Shown here in pieces: positions 2,848 to 10,076 of a stretch of 37,875 nucleotides of DNA. The notes beneath the pieces are model-generated. The model had not been told where the DNA came from. It did no database searches and saw only the letters and a list, made by a program, of their open reading frames with translations. A program made the translations under genes and the position numbers. The stretch is from positions 1 through 37,875 of the forward strand of contig LDXR01000022.1 of assembly GCA_001443495.1 (NCBI GenBank), in the 5' to 3' direction. Within the stretch, counting starts at the first letter, position 1, and each line of letters begins with the position of its first letter. Source of the stretch: a candidate division NC10 bacterium CSP1-5. GTDB taxonomy: Bacteria; Methylomirabilota; Methylomirabilia; Methylomirabilales; CSP1-5.

Positions 2848-3726
2848 ATGATGAAGACTCGAACCATCCTCCTCGGATTTTTCCTCTCTCTCCTTGTCGC
2901 GGGCTGGCTCGCGGTTCCCCCGGCCCACTCCAGATCCCGCAGGGTCATTGTCGTCAGCATCGACGGCGCACGCCCGGACGCGCTCCTTGTGGCCAAGACC
3001 CCGACCATCACCCGCCTGTGGAAGCAGGGAGCGTACTCCTTCCGCGCCCAGACGGTCTCCCCCAGCACCACGCTCCCCGCCCACACCTCGATGCTGACCG
3101 GAATCTCTCCTGACCGCCACGGCGAGCGAGACAATAGCTGGTGGCCCGGAGAAGCGATAGTAGCCGTCGAGACGGTCTTCAGCCTGGCCAAATCCCGCGG
3201 GCTAAAGACCGCGATGGTGGTGGCGAAGGAGAAGTTCGGCTTCCTCGCCCGCCCCGGCAGCCTGGATCATTTTGAGGTCGTCACCCATCCCGCGCCTGAA
3301 GTGGTCCGTCGGGCGGTCGCGTATCTGAGGTCGGAGAGGCCCCACCTCCTGTTCATTCACTTCACCGATGCCGACCTGATCGGCCACCTGCACGGCTGGA
3401 TGAGCTCGGAATATCTGATCGCGCTACAGACCGTCGATGACGCGGTAGAGACCTTGCTCCTGGCGCTCGAGGAGACGAGGCTTATCCGCGAGACCCTGCT
3501 CATTATCACCTCGGATCACGGAGGCCATGACTTCACCCATGGCACGACGCTTCCCGAAGATATGACCATCCCCTGGATCGCCGTTGCGCCCGGCGTTCGC
3601 GAGGGCTACCAGATTCCCGATCAGGTCGTGATCTACGATACCGCCGCCACCGTCCTCTATTTCCTGGGGGTCCCCATTCCGGCCCATTGGGACGGCGGCC
3701 CCCTCCGATCCATCTTCCGTCCATGA
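2848..3726 (+). CDS. Secreted type I phosphodiesterase / nucleotide pyrophosphatase family protein
   Basis: This is an alkaline-phosphatase-superfamily enzyme (292 residues) expected to hydrolyse phosphodiester or pyrophosphate bonds outside the cytoplasm. A hydrophobic signal segment (residues about 5-28) ends near AHS. The metal site begins with VIVVSIDGARPD; the catalytic Thr sits in PSTTLPAHTSMLTG; the later metal ligands appear in HFTDADLIGHLHGW and ITSDHGGHDFTHG. All of these fit the ectonucleotide pyrophosphatase/phosphodiesterase group. It starts 6 bases after the transporter operon, which hints at joint transcription, perhaps to release a nutrient that is then imported; that link is inference. 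The exact substrate is unknown. Confidence 0.88.
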   Translation: MMKTRTILLGFFLSLLVAGWLAVPPAHSRSRRVIVVSIDGARPDALLVAKTPTITRLWKQGAYSFRAQTVSPSTTLPAHTSMLTGISPDRHGERDNSWWPGEAIVAVETVFSLAKSRGLKTAMVVAKEKFGFLARPGSLDHFEVVTHPAPEVVRRAVAYLRSERPHLLFIHFTDADLIGHLHGWMSSEYLIALQTVDDAVETLLLALEETRLIRETLLIITSDHGGHDFTHGTTLPEDMTIPWIAVAPGVREGYQIPDQVVIYDTAATVLYFLGVPIPAHWDGGPLRSIFRP

Positions 3727-3777
3727 AACCATTTCAACCTTCACCTCCATGAGGCCGCACATGGCCCTACCCACGAC

Positions 3778-3954
3778 CCGGCAACAGCGCCTGTAGGTCC
3801 CGAGCGACATTGGCGAAAGCGGCGGGGTCCCTCGGCGCGCGACGGCCTGGGAAACCGAGGCGCGATCCGTGCCCAAGTTCGTTGCACGGATCGTGAACAC
3901 GGAGGGACCCGGGCCGTAAGCCGCCGTTCAGGGTCGCCGCGAAAGCCCCGGAGC
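3778..3954. repeat. Structured intergenic repeat, copy A
   Basis: This stretch matches 37699-37875 with no gap. By hand count there are 22 mismatches over the 174 columns from 3781 (about 87% identity). It lies in the gene-free interval 3727-4071. It contains a perfect 10-bp hairpin (CGATCCGTGC at 3863-3872 with GCACGGATCG at 3884-3893). Further complementary pairs nest around it: GGGTCCC 3825-3831 with GGGACCC 3904-3910, GCGGC 3819-3823 with GCCGC 3920-3924, and GCGAC 3804-3808 with GTCGC 3933-3937. Both hairpin arms are unchanged between copies while the loop differs, which favours a folded RNA or cruciform DNA element. A minus-strand reading frame is also open across both copies, so a decayed coding origin is not excluded. 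Confidence 0.75.
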
Positions 3955-4018
3955 GAGGGGCCGAGGGTGCTGTTACTTTCCGTGCCTGTGGGGCTGCCGA
4001 CGCAAGCTCCGTACGGAT

Positions 4019-4047
4019 TTGACGGCAGGAGGCGGGTGTGCTATAAC
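4019..4047 (+). promoter_or_regulatory. Sigma70-type promoter for the cyclophilin-like gene
   Basis: TTGACG (4019-4024) and TATAAC (4042-4047) are separated by 17 bases. Transcription would begin near 4054, just ahead of the GGAGGGG ribosome site at 4062-4068. This argues for translation from ATG 4072 and not from the ATG at 4060. Confidence 0.75.
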
Positions 4048-4071
4048 AGGCAAGCCTTTATGGAGGGGCCG

Positions 4072-4479
4072 ATGGCGCACAAGATCATTATCAAGACGGG
4101 CGATGTCACGGTTGAGGCGGTCCTCAATAACAGCCCCACCGCCAAGGCGGTCTGGGGGGCCCTTCCGATCACCGGCAAGGCCAACACCTGGGGCGACGAG
4201 ATCTACTTCGCCACTCCGGTCAAGCATGAACTAGAGCCGGCCGCCAGAGAGATCGTGGAAATGGGCGACCTGGGCTATTGGCCCCCCGGCAGGGCCCTCT
4301 GCATCTTTTTCGGACCCACCCCGGTCAGCACCGGCAGCGAGATCCGTTGCGCGAGTGCCGTCAATATCATCGGGCGCGTCCGGGGAGACCCGACGATCTT
4401 TAAGAAGGTCAAGGACGGTGCCCGCATCCAGATCGGCCCCCGCGTAACCGGCAAACTCTCAGAATTACCACGAAAATAG
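4072..4479 (+). CDS. Cyclophilin-like fold protein (TM1367-like family)
   Basis: This is a 135-residue protein of the small cyclophilin-like beta-barrel family related to Thermotoga TM1367. Family marks include an opening beta strand HKIIIKTGDVTVEAVL, NNSPTAKAVWGALPITG, the WGDEIYF segment, and the conserved block MGDLGYWPPGRALCIFFGPTP. The family resembles cyclophilins in fold, but prolyl isomerase activity is not established. No signal peptide or membrane span is present. A good promoter lies immediately upstream and the ribosome site GGAGGGG supports ATG 4072. It appears to be monocistronic: the next gene begins 116 bases later with its own ribosome site. Confidence 0.85.
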   Translation: MAHKIIIKTGDVTVEAVLNNSPTAKAVWGALPITGKANTWGDEIYFATPVKHELEPAAREIVEMGDLGYWPPGRALCIFFGPTPVSTGSEIRCASAVNIIGRVRGDPTIFKKVKDGARIQIGPRVTGKLSELPRK

Positions 4480-4595
4480 AAAGCCTTGACCTCAAGGGAC
4501 ATGTGCCCGCGTGACACATCGCACACGGCGAGCTCACGCGATGATCCACACCTAATGCGGAAGTTCCCCGGGGAACGGATAACAGGGGAGGGGCC

Positions 4596-4937
4596 GTGAA
4601 CATCGGTCCGAGAGAGCAGCGAAAGCGGCTTATCATGGGAGTAGCCACGCTGGCCATGTCCGTAGGGATCGCCATCGGACTCATCTATTTTGGCATCGAT
4701 TGGTGGTGGAGGCTCGGTCTCTTCTTCCCGTTCTGGATGGCAGCCCTTGGCCTCTTCCAGGCGCTCGAGGAGACCTGAGTGGCTCTGGCGGCGCGAGGCT
4801 CGCGAAATCTGGACACCGGAGAGGAGAAAATCCAAGACACCGCAGTGGTCGGGGAGCTTCGCCGCCAAGCGCGTCGCGTGTACATCGAATCCATCCTGGC
4901 GGCGACCTGGCTCACCGTGCTTTTTCTGATTCCCTAA
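4596..4937 (+). CDS. Small two-span membrane protein with in-frame TGA (candidate selenoprotein)
   Basis: From a GTG at 4596, preceded by GGGGAGGGG, the frame reads a basic N-terminus (NIGPREQRKRL), two adjacent hydrophobic stretches, then FQALEET and a TGA at 4776-4778. The same frame stays open past the TGA for another 52 codons to TAA at 4935. It keeps GC-rich third positions and encodes a soluble segment (VALAARGSRNLDTGEEK...RRQARRVY) and a final hydrophobic span (LAATWLTVLFLIP). The product would have 113 residues if the TGA is read, or 60 if it stops. A 5-bp hairpin lies 13 bases downstream of the TGA. Selenocysteine insertion is the favoured reading; alternatives are a genuine stop with decay, reinitiation at the adjacent GTG 4779, or a point nonsense mutation. 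I have no recognised function for this family. Confidence 0.55.
4792..4804 (+). promoter_or_regulatory. SECIS-like hairpin downstream of in-frame TGA
   Basis: CGCGA (4792-4796) pairs perfectly with TCGCG (4800-4804) around a GGC loop. The loop begins 18 bases after the TGA at 4776-4778 and its first base is G. Bacterial selenocysteine insertion elements are known to be short stem-loops at about this distance with a G early in the apical loop. The stem is short and GC-rich hairpins are common here, so this is suggestive only. Confidence 0.4.
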
Positions 4938-4970
4938 AAGGCGCCCAACTCCTTTGGAGGACAAGGTACC

Positions 4971-5129
4971 GTGAACATGCTGCGTCTCTCCGAAGTGAAT
5001 GCCTCGCAAGCTCTCCGCGCGCGAGGAACTGTTGGGCAACTGACCCTAGCACGCCTGCGTACCGGTGATACTTCCCTGGGTGTGCCCAACAAGATCGGCG
5101 GCCATGAGAAAATCGTTCCTTTTCGTTGA
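4971..5129 (+). CDS. Possible small ORF of 52 codons
   Basis: A GTG at 4971 follows TTTGGAGG at a distance of 10 bases and opens a 52-codon frame ending in TGA at 5127-5129, between the membrane protein and the methyltransferase. The predicted peptide (starting MNMLRLSEVNAS) has no recognised domain, no signal peptide and no membrane span. The good ribosome site is the only positive evidence. It may instead be non-coding spacer. Confidence 0.22.
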   Translation: MNMLRLSEVNASQALRARGTVGQLTLARLRTGDTSLGVPNKIGGHEKIVPFR

Positions 5130-5179
5130 GGGATCGGCTAGAATATCGTCCTCTATATCCAAGGGGAACGGGCCACATC

Positions 5180-5866
5180 ATGGATTCGCGATGGCAGCTC
5201 TCGCATAAGTCCGTCAAGCGGGCCTACGCCGCCGTTTCCCCCTTCTATGATCTCATCTTCGATCGCGTTTTCTATCCCGGGCGGGTCGAGGCCATCAAGC
5301 TCCTGGGCGTCGGCCCATACGATCAGATCCTGGAGGTTGGGATCGGCACCGGCCTGAACCTGCCCCTCTACCCGCGCCACCGCCGACTGGTGGGGATCGA
5401 TCTCTCGGGGCAAATGCTTCGCAGGGCGAAGGAACGCGTCCACGAGCTCGGCGCCCAACACGTGCGTCTCGTCGTGATGGACGCCACGCGGATGGGCTTC
5501 CAGGACAACAGCTTTGACCATGTCCTCGCGACGTACGTCATCAGCGCGGTGCCGGATCCCATCCAGGTCCTGCGCGAGATCAAGCGGGTGTGCCGGCCAA
5601 AGGGCCATATCATCATCCTGAATCACTTCAAGAGCGACCATCCCGTCATGGGCCGGCTCGAGAGGATGATGGCCCCTCTCATCACGCGCACGGGCCTCTT
5701 CAAGCCGGACCTCCAACTGATCCCCCTCCTGGAGAAGGTGGGCCTCGTCCCAGACCAGATCCACCGCGTCAATCTCCTCAGCGGCTGGCGCCTGGTCCGG
5801 TGTATCAATGTCAAGGAGACCCGGCCACAGATCTGGCCGATCGACGGAGGTAAACATGGCTCGTAG
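5180..5866 (+). CDS. Class I SAM-dependent methyltransferase, phospholipid N-methyltransferase-like
   Basis: This is a Rossmann-fold methyltransferase of 228 residues. Motif I is ILEVGIGTGLNLPLYP, the acidic end of beta 2 is LVGIDLSGQML, the motif II region is VVMDATRMGFQDNSFDHVLATYVISAVPDP, and RVCRPKGHIIILNHF follows. The N-terminal YAAVSPFYDLIFDRVFYPGR and the LEVGxGTG form recall PmtA-type phosphatidylethanolamine N-methyltransferases, but ubiquinone/menaquinone-type C-methyltransferases are close relatives, so the acceptor is uncertain. ATG 5180 follows AAGGGGAAC; an in-frame start at 5126 would add an unconserved basic tail. The gene overlaps the next by 11 bases, so it heads a four-gene translationally coupled group ending at 7304. 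Confidence 0.85.
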   Translation: MDSRWQLSHKSVKRAYAAVSPFYDLIFDRVFYPGRVEAIKLLGVGPYDQILEVGIGTGLNLPLYPRHRRLVGIDLSGQMLRRAKERVHELGAQHVRLVVMDATRMGFQDNSFDHVLATYVISAVPDPIQVLREIKRVCRPKGHIIILNHFKSDHPVMGRLERMMAPLITRTGLFKPDLQLIPLLEKVGLVPDQIHRVNLLSGWRLVRCINVKETRPQIWPIDGGKHGS

Positions 5867-7886: not shown

Positions 7887-9149
7887 GTGTCCAGGCGATC
7901 GACTTCAGCGGGTGGAACGGATGTCCCTCCCCTTTCCCAGGCTCCTCTCCAGGGCGGTGGGCCTGACGGGGAGCTGCGCATTCCGCCGGAATTTTCCGTT
8001 CGTCTCGAATGCGGAAAGGGGGCGGATTCCCCTCTGGCGTATCCCCTCGGCCTGTCCCCTCTTCCGGAGGTACTGAGGCACTACGCCCAAAGGCTCGAGG
8101 TGCCCTTCTCGTTTCTCGGCAATCAGCGCCGATACGCGCGTCCGAGCCGCGGAGAAGCCATCACCGTCCATCATTTCGCCCTTCCGACACCGCCGATCCT
8201 TTTGGGGTTATTCCCGCGCGTGCCGGAAATCCGCATCCCCTTCGCCTTCGGCTATCCCCTCGCACCGTCAGCCCAGCACGGCTTTCCCCCCGGCTCTCAC
8301 ATCGGTCGGGGAAGGACTCTGCGGGACGAGGAAGGGCGAGCCGTGGCAGAGATCGCCAAAGGAAACATCTACGTCCTCTTCAACCTCCTCGGTCAGGACG
8401 GAGAACTCCGGCCACTTCTCCTGCGACGCCTGCTCGACCTGAGTCTCCCCCGGGTCCTCACAGAGCGCAGAGGTCTGTCCCCGCTGGGATGGGATCCTCT
8501 CGAGGCCACCCTGGAGACGCTCCGGCAGGAGACCGAGGAGACAGCAGCCGGATGGGACCGACGACGGCAGGCCAAGGTCCGGCAGGCCTATGTTCAGGAA
8601 TGCCGGAGTCGCGTGCACGAGGAGATGGCCTTTCTGGAACAGGAGATGCGTCTCCTCGAGGAGAACCTGGAAGAGTATGCCCGTCGGATCACGGCCGAGA
8701 CCCGGCGGCTCTCGACATACCGGGAGCGTCTCAACACCCTGCGGGGCACCGCGCCCTCGCAGGCGCAACATCTCAAGGAGCTGGACGATCTCAAGGAGCT
8801 CCCCGAGGTCCGAGAGGTGCAGGTCCAGGATGGCCGGATCACGGTCTTCACCGCCCCGATCCATGCGGAGTACGAGGGCCGGGAATTCTGCCTGGGGAGT
8901 TATCGGATAGAGATCTCCCTCGCCGGCGATATTCGGATCTGGAACCTCACCAGCGCCGTCGGGGCCTATGACCACCCGCACATCTATCAGGGCCGGCCCT
9001 GTCTCGGCAACGCCCGGGAGGGCATCGCCAAGTTGATCGGGGAGTACCAGTTTGTGGCCCTCGTCTACGTCATCCTCGACTTTTTGAAGACGGTCAATTC
9101 GAAGGACTGGCGCGTTCCCATCGTCTACTGGCAGGAGTCGAGATCGTGA
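7887..9149 (+). CDS. Coiled-coil protein with C-terminal E2-like (ubiquitin-conjugating) domain
   Basis: This 420-residue protein has three parts. Residues 1-200 are an unrecognised proline-rich region. Residues about 205-300 are charged and coiled-coil (VHEEMAFLEQEMRLLEENLEEY). Residues about 310-405 resemble the UBC/E2 fold: a strand pair (SYRIEISLAGDIRIWNL), then HPHI at 363-366, then PCLGN with Cys372 nine residues after His363, then a hydrophobic helix (FVALVYVILDFLKTV). In E2 enzymes the HPN motif precedes the catalytic cysteine by a similar distance; here Asn is replaced by His, as in some prokaryotic E2 relatives. The following two genes encode E1-like and Gly-Gly ubiquitin-like proteins. 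GTG 7887 is the first start after the stop at 7869. The function is inferred from motif and neighbours. Confidence 0.75.
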   Translation: MSRRSTSAGGTDVPPLSQAPLQGGGPDGELRIPPEFSVRLECGKGADSPLAYPLGLSPLPEVLRHYAQRLEVPFSFLGNQRRYARPSRGEAITVHHFALPTPPILLGLFPRVPEIRIPFAFGYPLAPSAQHGFPPGSHIGRGRTLRDEEGRAVAEIAKGNIYVLFNLLGQDGELRPLLLRRLLDLSLPRVLTERRGLSPLGWDPLEATLETLRQETEETAAGWDRRRQAKVRQAYVQECRSRVHEEMAFLEQEMRLLEENLEEYARRITAETRRLSTYRERLNTLRGTAPSQAQHLKELDDLKELPEVREVQVQDGRITVFTAPIHAEYEGREFCLGSYRIEISLAGDIRIWNLTSAVGAYDHPHIYQGRPCLGNAREGIAKLIGEYQFVALVYVILDFLKTVNSKDWRVPIVYWQESRS

Positions 9150-9826
9150 GACCCGGGCGGTCCATGGAGTTTTTGCGGCAGCTGGATCTGGTGAATCCGG
9201 AGACGTTGGACCTCCCCATCCACCTCATCGGCTGCGGCGGGATCGGTTCCTTCGCCGCCCTGGCCCTTTCCAAGATGGGGGCCCAGCAGCTGCACCTCTA
9301 TGACCCTGATGGGATCGAGGAGCATAACCTACCGAACCAACTCTTCCGCCTGAGGGACGTGGGGCGGTTGAAGGTCGAGGCGCTCCGAGAAATCCTGCAG
9401 GAGTTCACCGGGGCTCCCGTGCAGGGGGTCCCGATCGAGGTGGAGGCCCAGCGCATGACGGGGATCGTGATTGCGGCGGTGGACACCATGCGGGCCCGGA
9501 AGGCGATTTGGCAGCGATCCATCCGCTATCGTGCCGGCGTGCTGAGGTACCTGGACGCGCGAATGGGCGCGGAGGTGGCACGGATCTACGCCGTGAATCC
9601 GACTGATCCGGACGACGTCCGGCTGTACGAAAAGACCCTGTATGGCGACGAGGAGGCCGAGGTTTTCCCTTGCACGGCAGCGGCGATTAGCTATAGTGGA
9701 TTTGCGATCGCCAGCCTGATCGGCAATCTGGTCAAGCGGCTGGCGACCGGCGAGGATCTCCCCCGCGAGATCCTCCTAGACCTCAAGACCCTCACCCTGC
9801 TCACCAGCTCGGGCGACCGATGCTGA
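9146..9826 (+). CDS. E1/ThiF-like adenylating enzyme
   Basis: This 226-residue Rossmann protein belongs to the ThiF/MoeB/E1 superfamily, which adenylates the C-terminal glycine of a ubiquitin-like protein. GCGGIGS at 29-35 binds ATP; YDPDGIEEHNLPNQLF with Asp53, then RLRDVGRLKVEAL, match the metal and nucleotide residues; AAVDTM follows at 110-115. Cys176 in FPCTAAAISYSG is in the place of the thioester cysteine of E1-like enzymes. The CxxC zinc pairs of ThiF/MoeB are absent, so it is the short E1 type seen in prokaryotic E2-containing cassettes. GTG 9146 overlaps the upstream stop (GTGA); an ATG at 9164 is an alternative start. A normal thiamine role is less likely because thiS lies elsewhere in the window. 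Confidence 0.87.
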   Translation: MRPGRSMEFLRQLDLVNPETLDLPIHLIGCGGIGSFAALALSKMGAQQLHLYDPDGIEEHNLPNQLFRLRDVGRLKVEALREILQEFTGAPVQGVPIEVEAQRMTGIVIAAVDTMRARKAIWQRSIRYRAGVLRYLDARMGAEVARIYAVNPTDPDDVRLYEKTLYGDEEAEVFPCTAAAISYSGFAIASLIGNLVKRLATGEDLPREILLDLKTLTLLTSSGDRC

Positions 9827-9842
9827 GGAAAGGAGGCAGATC

Positions 9843-10076
9843 ATGACGACGGACCTCTTGGAAAAGGAGCGAACCATTGCCGTCAAGGTGGTGATGATGG
9901 GAAAAAGCATCACCACGTACGTCGGGAAGGATCCGCTCTCCCTCGATGAGCTGCTGACCGAGATGGGCACCAACGGGAAGACGGAGGTGCGGGTCAACGG
10001 CCTGACGGTGGACAAGACGCACCGGCTGGCCTCGGGGGACATGGTCCTGGTCGTCCCTAAGATCCGGGGTGGCTAG
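9843..10076 (+). CDS. Beta-grasp ubiquitin-like / MoaD-ThiS-like protein ending in Gly-Gly
   Basis: This 77-residue protein has the pattern of a MoaD/ThiS-type beta-grasp fold: strand AVKVVMMGKSITTYVG, helix SLDELLTEMG, strand TEVRVNGLTV, then HRLASGDMVLVVPKIRGG. The chain ends exactly at Gly-Gly, so the terminal carboxylate is ready for adenylation without proteolytic processing. AAAGGAGG precedes ATG 9843, and the gene begins 16 bases after the E1-like gene. With E2-like and E1-like partners in the same unit, protein conjugation is more likely than sulfur transfer, but molybdopterin or cysteine-sulfur roles for MoaD-like proteins remain possible. Confidence 0.83.
   Translation: MTTDLLEKERTIAVKVVMMGKSITTYVGKDPLSLDELLTEMGTNGKTEVRVNGLTVDKTHRLASGDMVLVVPKIRGG

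Follow-up and report, generated by a model that had tools for sequence, protein, structure and literature searches.

How is a compact set of three genes to be understood which, on the chromosome of an uncultured soil and groundwater bacterium of the Methylomirabilota (candidate division NC10), encodes in close succession an E2-like protein, an E1-like protein and a small protein ending in Gly-Gly? The stretch of DNA analysed here (37,875 nucleotides, hereafter the window) is the entire contig C22 of a near-complete genome, and a sequence-only reading had assigned the genes to ubiquitin-like conjugation, with a protein-modifying or antiviral role. In bacteria, ubiquitin-like systems have mainly become known as parts of defence systems or of plasmids. 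We consider it likely that the present set is a ubiquitin-like protein (Ubl) conjugation cascade of the type borne by phages, which has been kept on the chromosome of this Methylomirabilota lineage.

All features lie on the forward strand. The first gene (7887..9149; GTG start, uncertain), delimited by ORF call, orthologues, alignment and AF2 model, encodes the 420-residue E2-like conjugating enzyme; the second (9146..9826, likewise with a GTG start) encodes a 226-residue minimal Ubl-activating enzyme (E1) of the ThiF family; the third (9843..10076) encodes a 77-residue beta-grasp Ubl, with its terminal Gly-Gly codons at 10068..10073. The start of the second gene overlaps the stop of the first by 4 bases and the third begins 16 bases past the stop of the second, in agreement with the sequence-only reading, whose motifs (HPHI at residues 363-366, Cys372 in PCLGN, GCGGIGS, Cys176 and the terminal IRGG) were all found again at their positions and whose three protein identities are borne out by fold, family matches and motif conservation. 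The operon has housekeeping genes as neighbours, which encode a bifunctional-nuclease-domain protein, a THEP1-type NTPase, a DUF2203 protein, an MFS transporter and a SurA-like PPIase, and no E3 was recognised beside it, in agreement with the same reading.

The full-length AF2 model of the E2 protein consists of a disordered start (residues 1-36, of low confidence), an alpha/beta domain (residues about 56-199; 8052..8483), which spans about residues 59-193 in the model itself, one long helix (residues 202-285; 8490..8741), which is a predicted coiled coil with coiled-coil-type profile matches, and a C-terminal domain (residues 288-420; 8748..9149). Searches of the whole protein against Pfam, NCBIfam, PADLOC and PHROGs returned coiled-coil noise or nothing, with no meaningful family match, and the N-terminal domain gave neither a PDB profile match nor a convincing fold match in the structure search, so that the earlier description of a large unassigned N-terminal region and a coiled coil fused to the E2 holds. 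A stretch similar to this domain occurs in a phage E2 (VYVLFDL; locus L161), and three viral proteins in BFVD (A0A6J5NL39, A0A516LW79 and A0A516LAI7) match the full E2 model with a Foldseek probability of 0.99-1.00, the matched domain not being specified.

Several approaches agree in supporting a UBC fold for the C-terminal domain, as had been predicted from the sequence. The isolated domain was modelled with a pLDDT of 86 and a pTM of 0.83, and in a Foldseek search of the PDB E2 enzymes make up all of its best 13 matches (probability 0.89-1.00, TM about 0.4-0.5, E 1e-3 or weaker). Likewise, the best 60 of 76 matches in a PDB profile search are all E2s, each of them individually weak (E 0.016 and weaker). 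When the domain, together with a diverse phage set, was compared by hhalign with three manually entered yeast E2 sequences, the probability was 94.1% (E=1.3e-7), with the HPH motif (H363-P364-H365, then I366; 8973..8981) placed on the HPN of the yeast enzymes and Cys372 (9000..9002), the predicted E2 catalytic cysteine, on their catalytic Cys. The NC10 sequences alone gave 3.6% in the correct register, adding one phage homologue raised this value to 27%, and the diverse phage set raised it to 94%; as the phage members of the latter had been picked by the pattern HP[HN]..C, the invariance of HPH and Cys within it is partly due to selection. The domain displays the succession of elements characteristic of UBC domains: a helix, a four-stranded meander, an HPN-like motif, a Cys about 8-10 residues further on, and another helix. 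The Asn of HPN is replaced by His invariantly in NC10 and in most phage relatives, and because HPH is common to the whole family, we regard it as a variant rather than a loss. This HPH-type E2 family is new, being named in none of the curated libraries scanned.

The E1 matches the Pfam family ThiF at 1.4e-17 and possesses the features of that family, i.e. GxGGxG (here GCGGIG, the nucleotide-binding motif, 9230..9247), DxD, a catalytic Lys and Asp, and a thioester Cys. D53, D55, K76, D113 and C176 are invariant from NC10 to phage (two phage E1s aligned), and Cys176 (in PCTA; 9671..9673), the predicted thioester cysteine, is present in 14/14 NC10 E1s. The arginine of the NxxRQ motif of ThiF-type E1s is absent: NC10 has NLPNQ, with Asn in its place, and Flavobacterium phage FpV4 has NTGGQ. 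The enzyme is minimal, without a separate Cys or UFD domain, and its hand-over to the E2 must therefore use another surface. Its PADLOC matches are E1-E2 proteins of defence systems (up to 7e-15); BubCD is matched at E=0.49 only, and the PRTRC model at 47.8 bits against a cut-off of 144.75. The third protein, judged by its sequence, corresponds to a beta-grasp Ubl modifier with a C-terminal Gly-Gly: it matches Pfam ThiS at 2.8e-4 (21.8 bits, with the Pfam cut-off at 22.5), and a terminal K-I-[RK]-G-G is invariant in 14 aligned NC10 sequences. The claim that this Ubl needs no maturation is correct for the window species, in which the protein stops exactly at GG (KIRGG-stop), but does not extend to several orthologous Ubls, such as those of L026 and L031, which carry residues past GG that a JAB peptidase could trim.

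Relatives of the E2 are present in 21/95 genomes of the phylum (8/33 genera), and when about 85,000 species of bacteria and archaea were scanned, only Methylomirabilota plus one contig, from a Desulfuromonadales MAG (L060), were recovered. We discarded this sole non-NC10 chromosomal match as probably mis-binned: its profile score and start residues are the same as those of L061/L037, which come from a MAG of the same series. Across loci from several NC10 families the E2, E1 and Ubl genes are for the most part clustered in a constant order, in some loci with a JAB gene inserted between E2 and E1, and among 60 genomes 16/16 with the E1 and 17/18 with the JAB also possess the E2; clustering and co-occurrence of the orthologues thus follow the prediction. 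In all comparisons made between species, dN/dS is below 0.35 for all three genes, and the HPH (363-365), Cys372, the E1 cysteine and the end of the Ubl are invariant in all aligned NC10 sequences. Linkage in the same order, selection and invariant motifs argue against an arrangement by chance: in NC10, the three genes form a single operon that is conserved and under selection. The three conditions named by the sequence-only reading as refuting it (no UBC fold, Cys372 and HPH not conserved, orthologues not clustered) were all examined, and none of them applies.

Two further sets of genes deserve mention. A Pup ligase of the PafA/Dop family is encoded near a contig end (G000:C16:70109-71365), and 20S proteasome genes occur in many NC10 relatives, which means that the NC10 lineage has a second, unrelated protein-tagging system; a link between it and the cassette was considered and rejected, as both the Pup ligase and the 20S proteasome genes are also found in genomes without the cassette. 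Contig C10 of the window's own genome carries a second, different set (L143 4277-6139), consisting of a JAB-like protein, a PRTRC-like ThiF and a Ubl ending ...LEFVRLAGEKG.

It had also been noted that no JAB deconjugase lies in the neighbourhood. This is true within the window but not for the genome, whose contig C14 carries the gene of a cognate JAB immediately behind that of a second, paralogous E2 (L040: E2b 3525-4661, JAB 4658-5293), nor for orthologous operons, as E2 and E1 are separated by the JAB gene in the families f2, f3 and f8 (L029, L031, L034 and L133). From this position, the order E2-JAB-E1-Ubl may be ancestral. Other genomes without an operon JAB have one elsewhere, either alone or beside a second E2, and in three MAGs of the same genus as the window (88-96% complete) the operon is present and a JAB was not detected. 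The JAMM motif of the JAB is complete and invariant in the alignment, and among proteins of solved structure the JAB is most closely related to the archaeal N11 and eukaryotic Rpn11 deubiquitinases. In the E2 tree, the JAB-linked E2b proteins are separate from the operon E2 proteins, with weak deep support. In one genome (G013; L130 2570-3424) an in-frame fusion joins the first part of the E2b N-terminal domain to the JAB, with coiled coil and UBC domain absent, which suggests either a possible cooperation of the N-terminal domain with the JAB or an in-frame deletion. Adjoining E2b and JAB on C14, two paralogues with N-L-[FW]-N-V-Q...CRACLRG flank a small Ubl-like gene (L040 6338-8377); they resemble PRTRC-B/Prok-E2_D by eye, match no Pfam family and are partly conserved in L037 and L038.

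Outside NC10, the nearest relatives among those found are, by sequence, cassettes encoded by phages. A scan of viral contigs with the E2 profile led to a contig (L146) on which Ubl, E2, JAB and E1 occur together with terminase, portal, DNA polymerase and tail genes. The window E1, searched by tblastn against GenBank phages, matched 81 records, the best being FpV4 (40% identity, E=1e-25), with many matches in crAss-like phages at about 30% identity, and a scan of IMG/VR with the E1 alignment yielded at least 453 contigs with E1 relatives (identity up to 50% among the matches listed). In 81 viral loci examined, a JAB lies near the E1 in 78 (with the full JAMM motif in 72), the E2 profile matches in 55, 42 of which display the HP[HN]...C pattern without any pre-selection for it, and all four parts are present in 53, most commonly in the order Ubl-E2-JAB-E1. 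The IMG/VR locus L161 resembles the window cassette in several respects, with the order E2-JAB-E1-Ubl, an E1 of 50% identity, an E2 of similar architecture and a Ubl that terminates in IRGG; since no terminase of the two families tried was found there, its viral nature rests on IMG/VR, and some other viral cassette contigs do carry terminase genes of these families. Searches by E2 tblastn recovered no plasmid or annotated phage relative, and the E1 search of plasmids only a distant PRTRC ThiF. Some viral contigs are more elaborate: one shows five tandem E2 profile matches upstream of JAB-E1 (L185 57-5363), and four carry two cassettes in a row (E2-JAB-E1-Ubl ... Ubl-E2-JAB; L189, L195, L199 and L201), in which some E2 matches without HPH...C may be inactive partners.

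In the E1 tree, the 14 NC10 sequences constitute one clade (SH-aLRT 97), which joins three phage sequences and lies within the phage diversity; the tree search was short, its outgroup very distant and its sampling biased towards viral contigs and NC10. Together with the distribution, this tree favours a single acquisition from a phage by an NC10 ancestor. The chromosomal cassette would then most likely descend from a phage cassette of the order Ubl-E2-JAB-E1 or E2-JAB-E1-Ubl, and JAB and E1/Ubl would subsequently have been partitioned between two E2 loci.

The direction of this transfer might also be the reverse, if a bacterial system directed against phages or triggered by stress, comparable to Bil or Bub and ancestral on chromosomes, had been captured by phages. 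The anatomy (Ubl, E2, JAB and E1) matches that of Bil, the defence-related PADLOC matches of the E1 point the same way, and the sampling of chromosomes is limited. However, the NC10 E1s nest inside the phage diversity, 247 genomes of another phylum contained no E1 of the cassette family at E<=1e-25 (in a search without its own positive control), and there is no defence island in the window or at ten other loci, where the PADLOC matches listed comprise a UvrD-type helicase, cross-matches of an ABC ATPase to mads/DRT, and similar cases. We therefore regard a chromosomal defence origin as rather unlikely, and the antiviral role proposed earlier finds no support among the housekeeping neighbours of the operon.

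A second alternative concerns the chemistry. The E1 and Ubl could be a sulfur-carrier pair of the ThiF/ThiS or MoeB/MoaD kind, in which the Ubl is converted to a thiocarboxylate for biosynthesis, and the first gene would not encode a conjugating enzyme. Both proteins score against the ThiF and ThiS families, the Ubl is a single domain of ThiS size, and Cys176 presumably corresponds to the ThiF cysteine. Against this stand the co-occurrence of a JAB and of a protein of E2 fold whose HPH and Cys are invariant, the same four-gene set in phages, a separate full-length ThiF-family protein in the genome, and the finding that no thiamine or sulfur-transfer genes were recognised adjoining the operon. 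The parts list, the conservation of the motifs and the JAB make protein conjugation far likelier, and we judge a sulfur carrier to be quite improbable. That the operon is a decayed, non-functional relic which lost its JAB, as the absence of this gene from the operon in the window genus might indicate, is largely refuted by the low dN/dS, the intact catalytic residues and the JAB kept in trans beside the second E2, and can hardly be entertained.

Returning to a conjugation cascade of phage type, we infer the following course from its parts, motifs and folds. The E1 would adenylate the C-terminal Gly-Gly of the Ubl with ATP and hold the Ubl as a thioester on Cys176, from which it would be handed to Cys372 of the E2, with the HPH motif shaping the active site. 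The E2 would then transfer the Ubl to lysines of target proteins, and because no E3 is recognised nearby, these targets are probably held by the N-terminal domain and coiled coil of the E2 itself. The Rpn11-like JAB, encoded elsewhere in the window genome and within the operon in relatives, would trim Ubl tails and remove the tag.

This reading has consequences beyond NC10, as the same Ubl logic, with a new HPH-type E2 family encoded beside its E1, is seen both in numerous phage contigs and chromosomally in one phylum. On balance, we lean towards the view that many tailed phages, crAss-like phages probably included, encode complete working pathways of Ubl conjugation and deconjugation (Ubl, HPH-type E2, JAB and E1), of which the literature searched contains no description as a class, and that one such pathway was acquired a single time by Methylomirabilota and retained there, with E1/Ubl and JAB divided between two E2 paralogues. 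If active, the cassette would allow phages to tag proteins during infection, and would offer a compact system of three or four genes, apparently without an E3, for studying what ubiquitin-like transfer minimally requires. Genes of crAss-like phages that are annotated 'thiamine biosynthesis' and 'metalloprotease' may also gain a meaning from it. The openly accessible literature searched yielded no paper on a Ubl E1/E2 cascade of phages, and none that treats ubiquitin-like systems of Methylomirabilota.

The sequence-only reading had placed the cassette beside Bil, CBASS and the prokaryotic E2 classes; its features, however, depart from the definitions of each. Bil (BilABCD) likewise unites Ubl, E2, JAB and E1 in one operon, but BilA has two Ubl domains, BilB a CEHH motif, and BilD an inactive and an active adenylation domain with a Cys domain (PMC11354881), in contrast to the single 77-residue Ubl, the HPH E2 and the single 226-residue E1 of the window. 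Cap2/Cap3 of CBASS share E1 and E2 folds with the window proteins, and the E1 domain is similar, as its PADLOC matches indicate. Cap2, however, is an E2-E1 fusion acting on the CD-NTase, whereas the window proteins are separate and accompanied by their own Ubl, with no CD-NTase in the operon and no CBASS genes among the neighbour families listed. The bacterial classes 6a-6e, in those parts of Iyer et al. 2006 (PMC1779556) considered here, resemble the cassette in their neighbourhoods of E1, E2-fold, JAB and Ubl genes, and 6d also in its stand-alone single Ubl. As characterised there, 6a has an E2-E1-JAB fusion and 6b a nucleotidyltransferase, both lacking in the window cassette; 6c has a metal-binding partner, none being seen beside the cassette; the E2 of 6d has no upstream His, unlike the HPH of the window E2; and 6e has a polyUbl instead of a single Ubl. 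The same parts describe phage Ubls with a JAB peptidase in tail-assembly clusters, and an E1/E2 cascade in phages is not among their accounts. For PRTRC, which we take class 6d to resemble, an E2 without upstream His, a JAB with an N-terminal domain and a helical partner are characteristic, whereas the window E2 has HPH and no Prok-E2 Pfam match.

A closer likeness is found in phages. In crAss-like phages (Steigviridae) and Flavobacterium phages (FpV4), a homologous E1 of about 30-40% identity adjoins a JAB with HSHx7S..D, in a block that mostly comprises a Ubl-like protein, a 370-445-residue HxH...C protein, the JAB and ThiF in the order Ubl-E2?-JAB-E1; the gene pairs are annotated 'ThiF' and 'metalloprotease', with no role stated in the annotation. 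In crAss-like phages, this block differs in being situated between primase and uracil-DNA glycosylase, and the HxH...C protein, a putative E2, aligns with the window E2 at an hhalign probability of 3.8%, which is not significant; these phages probably carry a divergent version of the cassette. A conserved protein of 210-270 residues lies between ThiF and uracil-DNA glycosylase in crAss-like and related phages (L148, L150-L154 and L156). The closest kin found are the phage Ubl-E2-JAB-E1 cassettes, in which a homologous E1, a JAB, an E2 with HPH and Cys, and a Ubl are united in one cluster, as in L161.
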